Shown: positions 36,593-42,922 of the stretch, in pieces
How the letters are laid out: every line of letters starts with the position of its first letter
How positions within the stretch are numbered: the first letter of the stretch is position 1
DNA from: Lysobacteraceae bacterium
Lineage (GTDB): Bacteria > Pseudomonadota > Gammaproteobacteria > Xanthomonadales > Rhodanobacteraceae
DNA: 64,000 nt
Direction: 5' to 3'
Assembly (NCBI GenBank): GCA_004143945.1
Contig: SEHB01000009.1
Location: forward strand, 1-64,000
The notes under the pieces: generated by a model
The model's input: the letters and a program-made list of their open reading frames with translations, nothing else
Databases searched by the model: none
Told to the model about the DNA's origin: nothing
Program-made: the position numbers and the translations under genes

Positions 36593-37540
36593 ATGACCGC
36601 CCGCACGCTCGGACACTCCGGCCTCACGGTCCAGCCGCTCGCGCTCGGCGGCAACGTGTTCGGCTGGACCCTCGATGAAGCCGCCTCGTTCCGCGTGCTC
36701 GACGCGTTCGTCGATGCCGGACTCGACCTCATCGACACCGCAGACGTCTACCCGGCCTGGGTGCCCGGCAACGAGGGCGGCGAATCCGAAGCGATCATCG
36801 GCCGCTGGCTCGCTCAGGGCGGACGGCGCGACAAGGTCTTGATCGCGACCAAGGTCGCGAAGTGGGATCGGCGCAAGGGTCTGTCACCCGCGAACATCGA
36901 AGCCGCTGCCGACGATTCGCTGCGCCGACTCGGCGTCGACGTGATCGACCTCTACTTCGCGCACGAAGACGACGCCTCGGTCGCGCTCGAGGACACGCTC
37001 GGCGCGTTCGCCCGCCTGATCGAGCGCGGCAAGGTGCGTGCGATCGGCGCCTCGAACTACGACGCGAGTCGCCTCGCCGAAGCACTCGACACGAGCGCGC
37101 GGCACGGCCTGCCCCGCTACGAGGTCCTGCAGCCCGAGTACAACCTCGTCGCGCGCAAGGACTACGAAACCCGGCTCGCGCCGATCGTGGCCGGACACGG
37201 ACTCGGCGTCGTGCCGTATTACGCGCTCGCGAGCGGATTCCTGACCGGCAAGTACCGCAGCGAAGCCGACCTCGGCAAGAGCAAGGCGCGCGCTGGCGCG
37301 GCCGCGCGCTACCTCAACGGCCACGGCCTGCGCGTGCTCGCGACGCTCGACGACGTGGCGAAGCGCCACGATGCGACACCGGCGCAGGTCGCGCTCGCGT
37401 GGCTGATCGCGCGCCCCGGCATCACCGCGCCGATCGCGAGCGCGACCAGCGTCGCGCAGGTGCAGGAACTCGCGGGCGCGGTGCGGCTGAAGCTGTCGCG
37501 CGACGATCTCGACGCGCTCGAGCTCGCGAGCAACGCCTGA
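36593..37540 (+). CDS. Aldo/keto reductase
   Basis: MTARTLGHSGLTVQPLALGGNVFGWT...DLIDTADVYPAW...LIATKVAKW...DLYFAHEDD...VRAIGASNYDASRLAEAL. Confidence 0.95.
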   Translation: MTARTLGHSGLTVQPLALGGNVFGWTLDEAASFRVLDAFVDAGLDLIDTADVYPAWVPGNEGGESEAIIGRWLAQGGRRDKVLIATKVAKWDRRKGLSPANIEAAADDSLRRLGVDVIDLYFAHEDDASVALEDTLGAFARLIERGKVRAIGASNYDASRLAEALDTSARHGLPRYEVLQPEYNLVARKDYETRLAPIVAGHGLGVVPYYALASGFLTGKYRSEADLGKSKARAGAAARYLNGHGLRVLATLDDVAKRHDATPAQVALAWLIARPGITAPIASATSVAQVQELAGAVRLKLSRDDLDALELASNA

Positions 37541-37627: not shown

Positions 37628-38401
37628 TCAGGCGCTCTCCGCCAGCACGCTCGCAGACAGCGTCGCCGGCGCGAGCGCGCGGCCGATGAACCGGTAGCTC
37701 GGCACGCGCGCGAGCGGCAGCCACGGCAGCGGCGACGACGCCTCGACGACATGGTGCAGCGGCAGGCACCGACGCAGCGCCGGCAGGTGCGCGGGGTCGA
37801 GGCGCACGCCGTCGTGCGCGAACCAGCGTGGCCAGAACCAGCGCATGAGCGCGTGATGCTGCACGCGGCCGCGATCGGCCTGCGCAGGCGAGACGTGGAA
37901 GTCGACCACGGCGAGTACGCCACCGGGCCGCAGCATCGCGACTGCATTGTCGATCGCGGCGCGCCAGTCGGGAATCATCGTCAGCGCATAGGACAGGATC
38001 ACGACGTCCGCAGGCACGGCCGGTTGCCAGCGCGTCGCGTCCGCTTCGATCACGTGCATCTGCGGGATCCGCCGCGCGCGCTCGCGCGCGCGGGCGAGCA
38101 GCGGCGCGCAAAGGTCGACGACCTCGTACGACGCGATGCGCGCGAGGCGTTCGCCGAAGAACTCCGCATTGCGCCCGGTGCCACCGCCGAGTTCGATGAT
38201 GCGCGCCTCGGCCGGCAACTCGATCGAGGCGACGAGCTCGGCACGGCCGGCCAGCAGGCGTTCGCGGAACGCGTCGTAATGCGCCGATTGCGCCGAGTAG
38301 AAGCGCGTCAGCGCCTCGGCATGCGAGCCCGCGCGCGGCATCCCGCGCAACAGGCGCGCGAGTACCGCCGCATCGCCGCGCAGCGCATCAAGCCGGGACA
38401 T
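37628..38401 (-). CDS. btaB: SAM-dependent methyltransferase, BtaB-like
   Basis: YSAQSAHYDAFRERLLAGRAELVASIELPAEARIIELGGGTGRNAEFFG...VVDFHVSPA...WPRWFAHDGVRLDPAHLPAL; overlaps btaA by 14 bp. Confidence 0.8.
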   Translation of the reverse strand: MSRLDALRGDAAVLARLLRGMPRAGSHAEALTRFYSAQSAHYDAFRERLLAGRAELVASIELPAEARIIELGGGTGRNAEFFGERLARIASYEVVDLCAPLLARARERARRIPQMHVIEADATRWQPAVPADVVILSYALTMIPDWRAAIDNAVAMLRPGGVLAVVDFHVSPAQADRGRVQHHALMRWFWPRWFAHDGVRLDPAHLPALRRCLPLHHVVEASSPLPWLPLARVPSYRFIGRALAPATLSASVLAESA

Positions 38402-39590
38402 CGGCGATCACGAAGCCGGGATAGGTGTGCACGCGATCGTGCGGCTGCAGCGCGATCGCTTCGCCGTCCATGAAGCGGAACGCATCACGCAGGCGCTCCC
38501 GCGCGGGCCCGATGCGCACCTGCTCGAGGTAGGCCGGCCGCGCCTGCGCGCTGCGCAGCAGGATGCGCGCGCCCGGCGCCGCGCGCGCACGGATCGCCTC
38601 CCATTCCTCGACGAGCGCATCGGGGTGGCACGAACTCATCCAGTCCATGTGGTCGAGCAGCACGAAGCGCGAGATCTGCGCGTCGTGCGCCTGCAGGAAG
38701 CGCGTGACCGTGGTCGTGCGGGTTTCGATGCGGTCCGCGAGGCCGTGCTTGAGGCGTTCGAAATTGGCGGGCTTCAGGTATTCCGGGCAGCAATCGCGGC
38801 GGTAGCGGCCGGCGAGGTAGACGTGCCAGAAGTAGTTGTCCGACAACGGCAGCTGCCGACACACGTACTGGATCGCAGCGCGGATGTAGCCCGCCGCGCC
38901 GCCCGCATGCTGTGCCTCGACCAGCCGTCGCTGCGCGGTCGGCACGCCGAGCAGGCTCATCACCGATTGCCGCGCGATCAGCCAGTTCACCGGCCCGCTC
39001 CACAACGCGGGCGCGACGCGCCGGTCGTAGATCGCGCGCTGGCGCACCAGGTCGCGCGCGCCGAGCAGGTCCTCGACCGCGTCGCGCAGGCGCGGCCGCG
39101 CCGCGAAGTATGCGCGGACGCCGCGCGCGACGAGCCCGGACAGGCCGCGGAAATAGAAGCCGGTGTCCTTGCACGTGAACCAGTGCGTGCGTTCGTCCCA
39201 CCACGTGCGCGCGACGTCGGGAAGGTCCGCGCGCAGCACGTCGTGGTAGGCCTGCAGGAAGCGCGGATGGTGGCCCTCGCCGAACAGCGCGAAGAAGTCG
39301 TCGAAAGCGAGGCGGCGCACGCCCGCGAGCTTGAGCTGCAGCAGCGCGTTCTGGCGTGGATTCGCATCGACCGCGAAGATCCGGCGCGGCGCGTCGAGTG
39401 CGTAGTCGAGCGCATTGCAGCCCGCGCTGGTGATCGCGAGCACGCTGTCGTCGGCGCCCAGCGCGAGCGCGCGGCGATCCACCGCGGGATCTTCCCAGCA
39501 CGTGTTGTAGACGAGGCTGCGCGAGGTGATCGCGTCGAAGATCCGCTGGTCGAGCTTTTCGCGCAGGGTCGGATGGGCCATGGCCGGCAA
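38388..39590 (-). CDS. btaA: DUF3419/BtaA-like S-adenosylmethionine:diacylglycerol 3-amino-3-carboxypropyl transferase
   Basis: RIFDAITSRSLVYNTCWEDPAVDRRALALGADDSVLAITSAGCNALDYALDAPRRIFAVDANPRQNALLQLKLAGVR...FLLDHMDWM: DUF3419 signature. Confidence 0.88.
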   Translation of the reverse strand: MPAMAHPTLREKLDQRIFDAITSRSLVYNTCWEDPAVDRRALALGADDSVLAITSAGCNALDYALDAPRRIFAVDANPRQNALLQLKLAGVRRLAFDDFFALFGEGHHPRFLQAYHDVLRADLPDVARTWWDERTHWFTCKDTGFYFRGLSGLVARGVRAYFAARPRLRDAVEDLLGARDLVRQRAIYDRRVAPALWSGPVNWLIARQSVMSLLGVPTAQRRLVEAQHAGGAAGYIRAAIQYVCRQLPLSDNYFWHVYLAGRYRRDCCPEYLKPANFERLKHGLADRIETRTTTVTRFLQAHDAQISRFVLLDHMDWMSSCHPDALVEEWEAIRARAAPGARILLRSAQARPAYLEQVRIGPARERLRDAFRFMDGEAIALQPHDRVHTYPGFVIADVPA

Positions 39591-39627
39591 TGCCGCAGGT
39601 GCGATGCGCGCACGCTAGCCAGCCGAT

Positions 39628-39658
39628 GTGACAGCCGCGTGGCCGCGCACGCTGTCAC
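39628..39658. promoter_or_regulatory. Perfect 8-bp inverted repeat GTGACAGC-N15-GCTGTCAC in the divergent btaA/phosphoesterase promoter region
   Basis: gtgacagc cgcgtggccgcgcac gctgtcac read directly; candidate operator. Confidence 0.45.
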
Positions 39659-39755
39659 CGCCGCGAAACCGCATCGACACCGGCCGGCAACCGCATGGAA
39701 ATGCCCGCGTGACGCGAGCAGGCGAGCATGCGCCGGACCGGAAAGGGGACCCGCG

Positions 39756-40550
39756 ATGAACCGCACATCGTATCGCAGCGTATTCGTTTCCGACGTGCAC
39801 CTCGGCCTCGCCGACTGCCAGGCGGGCTTCCTGCTCGACTTCCTGCGCTCGATGCGCTGCGAACGCCTGTACCTGGTCGGCGACATCATCGACCTCGAGA
39901 ACATGGCGCGCCGGCCGTACTGGCATTCGAGCCATGGCGCGGTCGTCGCCGAGGTGATCGCGATCGCCGCGCTTGGAACGCGCGTGACCTACATCCCGGG
40001 CAACCATGATGCAGCGCTGCGCCAGCTCGCCGGACAGCGCATCGCGGGCATCGACTTCGCGCTCCACGCGAACCACGTCGCCGCCGACGGCCGGCGCTAC
40101 CTCGTCTCGCACGGCGACGAGTTCGACGCGCACGGCTCCACGCCAGCCTGGCTGCTGCGGCTTGGCGACGTGCTTCAGGGCGTCGTGTGCGCGCTCAATC
40201 GCCGCTGCAACCGCGTGCTGCGCTTCTGCGGCTGCGACTACCGGCCGCTGTCGGTCGGCATCAAGGCGCGCATCGGCGCGGCGCGGCGCTTCATCCACGA
40301 CTTCGAGCGGCGCGTGGCCGAGCACGCGCGCCGCGAGGGCTACGACGGACACATCTGCGGCCACATCCATTTCGCCGCGATGCGCGAACATGCAGGCGCG
40401 CTCTACCTCAACGACGGCGACTGGGTCGAACACTGCACGGCACTGGTCGAGCATGCCGACGGCACGTTCGAGCTGCTGCACTGGACTGGCCGGGGCGTGA
40501 GCCTCGCGCAAAGCGCCGCGCAGCCGATCGCATTGCCGGCGGCCGCGTGA
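39756..40550 (+). CDS. Calcineurin-like metallophosphoesterase of the LpxH/PlcP-like family
   Basis: VFVSDVHLGLADCQAGFLLDFLRSMRCERLYLVGDIIDLENMARRPYWHSSH...YIPGNHDAALRQ...YLVSHGDEFDAH...GYDGHICGHIHFAAM...YLNDGDWVEHCTALVEHADGTFELLHW. Confidence 0.9.
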   Translation: MNRTSYRSVFVSDVHLGLADCQAGFLLDFLRSMRCERLYLVGDIIDLENMARRPYWHSSHGAVVAEVIAIAALGTRVTYIPGNHDAALRQLAGQRIAGIDFALHANHVAADGRRYLVSHGDEFDAHGSTPAWLLRLGDVLQGVVCALNRRCNRVLRFCGCDYRPLSVGIKARIGAARRFIHDFERRVAEHARREGYDGHICGHIHFAAMREHAGALYLNDGDWVEHCTALVEHADGTFELLHWTGRGVSLAQSAAQPIALPAAA

Positions 40551-40672: not shown

Positions 40673-42718
40673 TCAGCCGTGCGGCGGCAGCTCGTAGACG
40701 TACACCGAGATCGTGCCGGTCGCGGTGCCGCCGCGACCGTCGGAGACGGTGTACTCGAACCAGTCCTGCCCGAACCAGCCGTGCACCGATTCATAGTGCA
40801 CGCTGCCGTCGGGATTGAGCGTGACGGTATTGGTCGGCAGGGGACCCGTGTGGTTGACCGAGACCACGGTCAGCACGTCGCCGTCGGGATCGGAAGTGGC
40901 CTGCAGCACGGGGATGTCGATCGAGCTGCCCTTGAGCACGCGCACCGACAACGGTCCCGCGGCCGGAGGCTGGTTCGGCGCGCTCACGCTGACGTGCACA
41001 GTCGCGCTCGCCTCGCCGCCGCGACCATCGCTGATGGTGTAGCTGAAGCTGTCCTCGCCGAGGTAGCCGGCCGCGGGCGTGTAGCTGACGCCACCCGCGG
41101 TCGCGACCGCGCTGCCATGCGCGGCACCGGACACCGCGATGACGAGGAGCGGATCGCCGTCCGGATCGCTGTCGTTCGCGAGCACCGCGACCGGATTGTC
41201 CTGCGAGTCCGGCGCGACCGCGATCGTGTCGTCCTGCGCGACCGGCGGCTGGTTCACGTATTCCTTCGGCCCGAGCGTGGTCGTGCTCGACGTCTCCTCG
41301 AATCGGTACACGTCGACCGTGCGCTTGTGCTCGGCCGGGTTGCGCAATGCGCGCTCGATCCATGCCGGGGGCGCGGCGACGGGTTCACGCACCCACTCGA
41401 CCTGCGATTCCGGCGGCAGTGGCGGCGGCGCGACCGTGCGTTCCTCGATCGTCAGGAAGTCGACGTCGACGCGGCGGTTCTTCTGCCGGTTCGCGGGCGT
41501 GTCGTTCGGGAACGCGGGATTGAGCTCGCCCTCGCCGCGCGCGTCGATCTGGTCGGCGGGCACGCCGCGCGAGACGAGATAGCGCTTCGCGCTTTCGGCG
41601 CGGCGTTCGGACAGTTTCTGGTTGTACGCGACGCTGCCGACCGCGTCGGCATGGCCGACTACCGAGATGCGGCTGACGCGCTCGACGCCGTTGAGCCTGG
41701 CGACGAGTTCGTCGAGCGCGGCGATCGCGTCGGGACGCAGTTCGTCGTGGTCGAAGTCGAAGAATGCGTCGCCGTCGAGGCGCACCTCGTTGCGGATCAC
41801 CTGCGGCGCCGCAGGCGGCGCCGGATCGGCGACGCTGCGCTCGACCTCGACCATCCGGTAGGGCTCGCGTGCGCGATGGTTCTCGCCGATGTCGTAGCGC
41901 AGCAGCAGCCACGCGCGCGTGTCGTTGCGGTCGATCTCGAAATCGCCGTTCTTGCGCAAGCCCTCGCCGAGCAGCGACAGGCTGAAGCCGGTGTTCGCGA
42001 AGTACTTGTCGAGCCCGAGCGAGACCGTCCACTGGTCCGAGTCGTGGTCCCCGCGTTCGTAGTCGAGGCCGCCGCGGAGGCGCAGCAGCGGCGCATCGAA
42101 GTAGCGACCGAAGCGCACGCCAATGCCGTTGTCGTACGGATGCTCGAACAGTTTGGTCAGCGTCTCGATCGTCTGCGTCTGCGTGTAGTCGCCGTTCGCG
42201 TCGCTGCCCGAGATCTGCGTGATGTCGGTCACCAGCGTGCTGCCCGCGAAACGCGAACCCGAGGTCGCATGCATGAGGTAACCGTCGATCGAGAAGTCGC
42301 GCTTCTCCCAACCGAGGCCGAGCGAGACCTTGCGGTCCTTCCACGCGTTCTGGTCGAACGCGCCGAACGCCTTGAGCACGCTCACGGAATCGGGGGCGTC
42401 GATGGCCTCGCGCGCGTCGCCGCGCAACCAGTGGTAGCCCAGCTGCACGCCGCCGGCGCCGCCATGGCCGAGCCAGAGCTGGCCGAGCCAGGCGCGCTCG
42501 TCGGTCTTGCCGAAGATCGCGAGCACCTCGCCGAGCACTTCGCCGTCGTCATCGATGCCGAGCGACACGCGCGCATTCGATCCGACGTAGGTGATCGGCA
42601 CGCTCGCATCGGAGCCGGGTCGCGGTGCGTCCGGCGTGGCGGGCGGCGCGACCTGCGCGCAGAGCGTGGACGACAATGCGAATCCGATCGCGACCGGCAA
42701 CAGCTTGCGACGAGCCAT
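40673..42718 (-). CDS. Outer-membrane protein: beta-barrel-like N-terminus, OmpA C-like domain, then two Ig/cadherin-like domains
   Basis: Signal peptide MARRKLLPVAIGFALSSTLCAQ; OmpA: FFDFDHDELRPDAIAALDELVARL...YNQKLSERRAESAKRYLVSRGVPADQIDARGEG...NRQKNRRVDVDF; VNQPPVAQDDTIAV..VLANDSDPDGDPL..YTPAAGYLGEDSFSYTISDGRGG and a second copy. Confidence 0.9.
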   Translation of the reverse strand: MARRKLLPVAIGFALSSTLCAQVAPPATPDAPRPGSDASVPITYVGSNARVSLGIDDDGEVLGEVLAIFGKTDERAWLGQLWLGHGGAGGVQLGYHWLRGDAREAIDAPDSVSVLKAFGAFDQNAWKDRKVSLGLGWEKRDFSIDGYLMHATSGSRFAGSTLVTDITQISGSDANGDYTQTQTIETLTKLFEHPYDNGIGVRFGRYFDAPLLRLRGGLDYERGDHDSDQWTVSLGLDKYFANTGFSLSLLGEGLRKNGDFEIDRNDTRAWLLLRYDIGENHRAREPYRMVEVERSVADPAPPAAPQVIRNEVRLDGDAFFDFDHDELRPDAIAALDELVARLNGVERVSRISVVGHADAVGSVAYNQKLSERRAESAKRYLVSRGVPADQIDARGEGELNPAFPNDTPANRQKNRRVDVDFLTIEERTVAPPPLPPESQVEWVREPVAAPPAWIERALRNPAEHKRTVDVYRFEETSSTTTLGPKEYVNQPPVAQDDTIAVAPDSQDNPVAVLANDSDPDGDPLLVIAVSGAAHGSAVATAGGVSYTPAAGYLGEDSFSYTISDGRGGEASATVHVSVSAPNQPPAAGPLSVRVLKGSSIDIPVLQATSDPDGDVLTVVSVNHTGPLPTNTVTLNPDGSVHYESVHGWFGQDWFEYTVSDGRGGTATGTISVYVYELPPHG

Positions 42719-42922
42719 GACACCCTCCCGAGTCGATGCAGCAGTCCTTGCAGGCTCGAGCCGTCCGCGTCGCGGCGGTTCGAACCCGGCACCACCATGC
42801 CCTTGTGGAAAACGCGTCACCGCGCGATCCGGCGCGCAGTATCGCCGATATCACCGGCACCACCAAACGCCGGCCGCGGCCGACCGGCGTATCATGGCGG
42901 GCCCGTTTTCCCGGAAAATCCC

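Follow-up and report, generated by a model that had tools for sequence, protein, structure and literature searches.

The closest described counterpart of the locus analyzed here is the plcP-btaA-btaB cluster (type 1) of Phaeobacter sp. MED193, which makes DGTS on phosphate starvation; deletion of plcP in this organism abolishes DGTS, and putative Pho boxes have been reported for the plcP clusters of MED193 and its relatives (PMC4796936). The same enzymes occur in Sinorhizobium meliloti, but plcP and btaAB lie ~390 kb apart on the record of strain Ak57. A gammaproteobacterial PlcP belongs to the plcP-agt1 pair (PA3219-PA3218) of Pseudomonas aeruginosa, in which it is accompanied by an Agt-like glycosyltransferase under Pho control and which makes glycolipids; btaA is not mentioned in the paper describing this pair (PMC8528852). 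PlcP also shares the calcineurin-like phosphoesterase superfamily and fold with the lipid A enzyme LpxH (TIGR01854).

The window, that is, the whole 64,000-nucleotide stretch of DNA analyzed here, comes from a bacterium belonging to Dokdonella or its vicinity (Rhodanobacteraceae, Lysobacterales; Dokdonella fugitiva and Dokdonella sp. are the closest records with a name) and carries the same three gene families as the Phaeobacter cluster, likewise adjoining and likewise furnished with putative Pho boxes (Table 1). Unlike in Phaeobacter, where plcP is followed downstream by btaA and btaB, in the window btaBA diverges from plcP across two back-to-back boxes, and the host belongs to a different class, the Gammaproteobacteria. 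The gene set is thus of a known kind, described from marine and soil bacteria with a published parallel (PMC4796936), to which our analysis adds the divergent arrangement around common Pho boxes, a lysobacteralean host, a probable double origin of the gene pairing and its loss as a block. The initial annotation had considered such a cassette surprising in a probable Xanthomonadales genome; its presence is confirmed, whereas the surprise is diminished by the earlier description of the type 1 arrangement. Our searches of the accessible open literature yielded no account of DGTS or PlcP from Lysobacterales. From the computed gene identities, separation of PlcP from LpxH, co-inheritance and promoter sites, we conclude that the cassette very probably serves to swap phosphorus-containing membrane lipids for a betaine lipid devoid of phosphorus once phosphate is exhausted.

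Table 1. Features of the btaBA-plcP locus and its borders (positions within the window)
Feature	Position	Strand	Assignment and remarks
aldo/keto reductase gene	36593-37540	+	left border, outside the system; kept in 6 of 8 cassette-less relatives
btaB	37628-38401	-	SAM-dependent N-methyltransferase, predicted to convert diacylglyceryl-homoserine to DGTS; methyltransferase Pfam matches, overlap with btaA
btaA	38388-39581	-	predicted S-adenosylmethionine:diacylglycerol 3-amino-3-carboxypropyl transferase (DUF3419 family); PF11899 match
btaA promoter element TGTCAC-N10-TAGCGT	39612-39633	-	Pho-box half-site and -10-like hexamer; conserved in relatives
plcP Pho-box-like site CTGTCACCGCCGCGAAAC	39652-39669	+	11-bp repeat, followed by a third, weaker repeat TCGACAC; conserved in relatives
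plcP	39756-40550	+	PlcP-type metallophosphoesterase (phospholipase C), predicted to convert phospholipid to diacylglycerol
OmpA-like gene	40673-42727	-	right border, outside the system; in cassette-less G029 it lies ~80 bp from the aldo/keto reductase gene

The three genes lie where the initial annotation had placed them, and the 14-bp overlap of btaA and btaB that it described is exact (38388-38401). Its divergent gap of ~165 bp holds as to the divergence, but this length fits a btaA start at TTG 39590; comparison with relatives favors ATG 39581, which leaves 174 bp. The OmpA-like protein at the right border contains repeated Ig/cadherin-like segments and is retained in some relatives and absent from others.

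The phosphoesterase scores above the cut-offs of both PF12850 and PF00149, and retains intact metal-site motifs DxH, GD, GNHD, and GHxH; residues D13, H15, G42, D43, G82-D85, H119, and G202-H205 are invariant in the alignments. The characterized PlcP genes were recognized by their gene neighborhoods. The phosphoesterase is 43% identical to the S. meliloti protein whose gene occupies the PlcP position, near those for an acyl-homoserine-lactone synthase and LuxR; we take this gene to be SMc00171, the characterized PlcP. It is also 42-43% identical to the product of a P. aeruginosa gene that is followed by a glycosyltransferase gene, matching the plcP-agt1 pair (PMC8528852). Public records of PlcP relatives (plasmid records H12-H40) as a rule carry the annotation UDP-2,3-diacylglucosamine diphosphatase, that is, LpxH, and one could therefore suppose that the gene encodes LpxH for lipid A and neighbors btaBA by chance. 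LpxH structures also come first, as the nearest solved fold, in a search with an AlphaFold model of the protein; this is to be expected within the superfamily, and the model, built from an alignment of the locus proteins only, is of moderate quality (pLDDT 76.7, with a poorly resolved C-terminal metal-site region). By sequence, neither PlcP nor BtaA has a solved-structure relative at an E value of 0.01.

Against the LpxH models, which have cut-offs of 134 and 190 bits, the phosphoesterase attains only ~25 bits (25.4 bits for TIGR01854, equivalog cut-off 190.35), whereas a canonical LpxH scoring 303 bits is encoded elsewhere in the genome (G000:C19:67672-68355) and is 24% identical to it; the result that would have refuted the initial annotation, a phosphoesterase grouping with true LpxH as the only such gene of the genome, was thus not obtained. 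A 43-sequence tree separates LpxH from the phosphoesterase and the characterized PlcPs with 100/100 support, and the gene is dispensable, lacking a match in 10 of the 16 genus genomes. LpxH identity is rejected on the score, the separate gene, the low identity and the tree, and the chance-neighbor explanation as a whole is extremely improbable. Two of the checks proposed by the initial annotation, placement relative to the PlcP and LpxH clades and a search for a separate lpxH, thus favor it, and by sequence the phosphoesterase is a member of the PlcP group. The stretch carrying lpxH (G000:C19:67672-75977, L122) also encodes a ppx/gppA-type phosphatase, ppk, a pstS-like gene, phoR, and phoB.

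The pairing of btaA with btaB is a feature of characterized systems, and btaB directly follows btaA at all 80 related loci fetched. BtaA matches nearly the entire DUF3419 profile (PF11899; positions 8-383 of 385, 379.7 bits, E = 2.4e-113, cut-off 28.2), is encoded by a single-copy gene, and shares 57-76% identity with its homologues at the 80 loci and ~30-34% with rhizobial BtaA. The family match of BtaA, the methyltransferase Pfam matches of BtaB and the pairing agree with the initial annotation of both enzymes. Nevertheless, no dedicated BtaB model was matched in the libraries searched, and BtaB is assigned by its neighborhood and by 38% identity over 149 aa, a match confined to about the N-terminal half, to the methyltransferase encoded behind the S. 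meliloti btaA homologue, with generic or other methyltransferase models as its only profile matches. The head group could accordingly be a different one, diacylglyceryl-homoserine or a partly methylated form, if BtaB were a different methyltransferase; given that the pair is kept at every related locus, as in characterized systems (PMC4796936), we consider this quite improbable and retain DGTS as the predicted product.

Several records of btaA deserve comment. In S. meliloti Ak57 (L114, CP090106), the btaA homologue is matched in two separate pieces with no gene listed, and it may therefore be disrupted or affected by a sequencing error. BtaA proteins of five metagenome-assembled genome records (L065, L071, L095, L096, L101) group with those of environmental beta- and gammaproteobacteria, and the titles of these records, Bordetella parapertussis or Klebsiella pneumoniae, look wrong. 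In two genomes of another genus of the family, btaA is broken or fragmentary (L029 in G212; L028/L030 in G211), suggesting ongoing loss or assembly gaps.

Phosphate control, which the initial annotation had assumed, is supported by the divergent promoter. The aligned promoters of relatives conserve TGTCAC-N10-TAGCGT on the btaA side and CTGTCAC-N4-GYGNAAC, with a period of 11, on the plcP side. The former occurs only twice in the 3.67-Mb genome, once in the cassette and once ahead of a pstC-like gene, for which PstC is the best-matching model (157.8 bits, under the cut-off of that model). The pattern CTGTCAYNNNNGYGNAAC is likewise found only twice, in the cassette and ahead of phoB, behind which lie phoR and a gene of the PstS family. 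Base composition would predict 0.17 and 0.28 occurrences genome-wide, respectively, and reversed-pattern controls yielded 0. Because the patterns were chosen with the alignments already in view, these counts are descriptive. In a scan with the canonical Pho-box consensus, tandem 11-bp repeats of the form CTGTCAT-N4-CTGTCAT, the two boxes of the cassette rank 2 and 3 in the window. A relaxed pattern allowing one mismatch gave 7 matches in comparison with 14 for its reversed control, a count that is not significant; three of the 7 fall at plcP, phoB, and an Agt-like glycosyltransferase gene. Period-11 Pho-box-like pairs (shuffle p <= 0.05) precede 33 of 79 BtaA loci, with ~4 expected. Taken together, the back-to-back Pho-box-like sites, which recur at phoB and the pstC-like gene, support the prediction that the cassette belongs to the Pho regulon.

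We infer the PhoB binding, the enzyme activities and the lipid itself from these assignments and regard a PhoB-controlled lipid-remodeling cassette as the highly likely function of the locus. At low phosphate, PhoB would bind the back-to-back boxes in the 174-bp gap and switch on plcP in one direction and btaA-btaB in the other. PlcP would then cut membrane phospholipid into diacylglycerol, freeing phosphate; BtaA would move the 3-amino-3-carboxypropyl group from S-adenosylmethionine to diacylglycerol; and BtaB would methylate the amine three times, yielding the phosphorus-free betaine lipid DGTS. Part of the diacylglycerol would probably pass to the Agt-like glycosyltransferase, a GT4 enzyme 41% identical to P. 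aeruginosa Agt1 and the one clearly Agt-like protein of the genome.

The gene for this enzyme, unlike agt1 of P. aeruginosa, is unlinked to plcP. It diverges from the pstC-like gene (G000:C17:481276 onwards; L156, L196), with Pho-box-like sites facing both ways, and the repeat located 94 bp before its start is conserved in relatives. It is present in all 7 genomes that carry the cassette and in 2 of the 9 others, in one of them as two broken pieces (hypergeometric p = 0.003, kinship ignored), and this co-occurrence implies that PlcP may feed two lipids, DGTS and a glycolipid. The three-gene cassette proposed initially stands, but the description of it as self-contained is slightly too strong. 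One might go further and propose that PlcP chiefly feeds the glycosyltransferase, with btaBA as a secondary partner, as would befit a gene that tracks the cassette from its Pho-boxed position opposite the pstC-like gene and the occurrence of PlcP without BtaA in most genomes of the family. Within the genus, however, plcP is physically tied to btaBA through a common promoter region, and the two roles are compatible; we therefore view a primarily glycolipid-directed PlcP as rather unlikely and keep DGTS formation as the main predicted role of the cassette. A plcP-glycosyltransferase pair like PA3219-PA3218 also resides on the P. aeruginosa plasmid pHPA0698-2 (L113), and three P. aeruginosa plasmid records contain such a PlcP match.

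Across the 80 BtaA loci, a PlcP homologue is encoded alongside in 25, being divergent in 6, downstream in 14, and upstream in 5. With btaB invariably behind btaA, these frequencies show that the arrangement is not due to chance, and the recurrence of the same partners in different gene orders argues strongly for a functional connection. PlcP is not generally dependent on BtaA, given that among 234 genomes of the family PlcP is found in 155 and BtaA in 29; the reverse case is represented by the Tahibacter-group genome G232 (95% complete), in which BtaA is present and PlcP was not found. In most family genomes, a vertically inherited PlcP gene occurs without btaA beside a gene for a GDSL lipase (for example, L144, L149, L152, and L153). 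All inspected family plcP genes away from btaAB adjoin this lipase gene, several with a glutaredoxin/rhodanese gene on the opposite side.

The plcP gene of the window is found in the same neighborhood, with the GDSL lipase gene at ~34.9 kb and the glutaredoxin/rhodanese gene at 42.9-43.8 kb, and its product lies inside the vertical family clade (100/98), so insertion of btaBA beside an old plcP is the likeliest history. In a second genus, g4, BtaA is sister to the group of the window (SH-aLRT 89), but the PlcP encoded behind btaAB is 44-48% identical to that of the window, falls outside its clade, and clusters most closely with PlcPs of betaproteobacteria, at modest support (86/78). Because closely related btaAB genes are thus joined to plcP from another lineage, the pairing probably arose twice.

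Within the genus, btaA is present in 7 of 16 genomes, in 6 of them with adjoining plcP; the contig breaks off close by in the seventh, which is 77% complete. The remaining 9 genomes have neither gene. In all 8 cassette-less relatives fetched, the flanks are kept in order and btaA, btaB, and plcP are all missing at the site. The genus tree, in which some deeper forks are weak, implies at least 4 changes between presence and absence, and G029, without the cassette, is sister to G030, which carries it (100/100). The three genes are therefore all present or all absent, and have been lost repeatedly as a block. Such losses in the genus, along with the broken btaA of the family member G212, might indicate that this strain, too, carries a decayed or unexpressed cassette. 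We deem this very unlikely, considering that none of the three reading frames is disrupted, that their motifs are conserved, and that the promoter sites agree with the ones found at phoB and the pstC-like gene. We lean, by a small margin, toward a scenario for Lysobacterales in which the PlcP-BtaAB pairing arose at least twice, btaBA in Dokdonella joined an ancestral plcP that had been passed on by vertical descent, sharing Pho boxes with it, and the trio became one dispensable block, repeatedly lost as a unit together with the unlinked Pho-controlled glycosyltransferase.

These results have several implications. Many of the proteins labeled UDP-2,3-diacylglucosamine diphosphatase in public records appear to be PlcP relatives, which looks like widespread misannotation. 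DGTS-type membrane remodeling, studied mainly in marine bacteria and rhizobia, would be extended to Lysobacterales. The sister genomes G030 and G029, with and without the block, offer a natural comparison for the costs and gains of the trait. If the proposed scenario is correct, phosphorus-sparing lipid remodeling would be acquired and lost at the level of the genus on an all-or-nothing basis.
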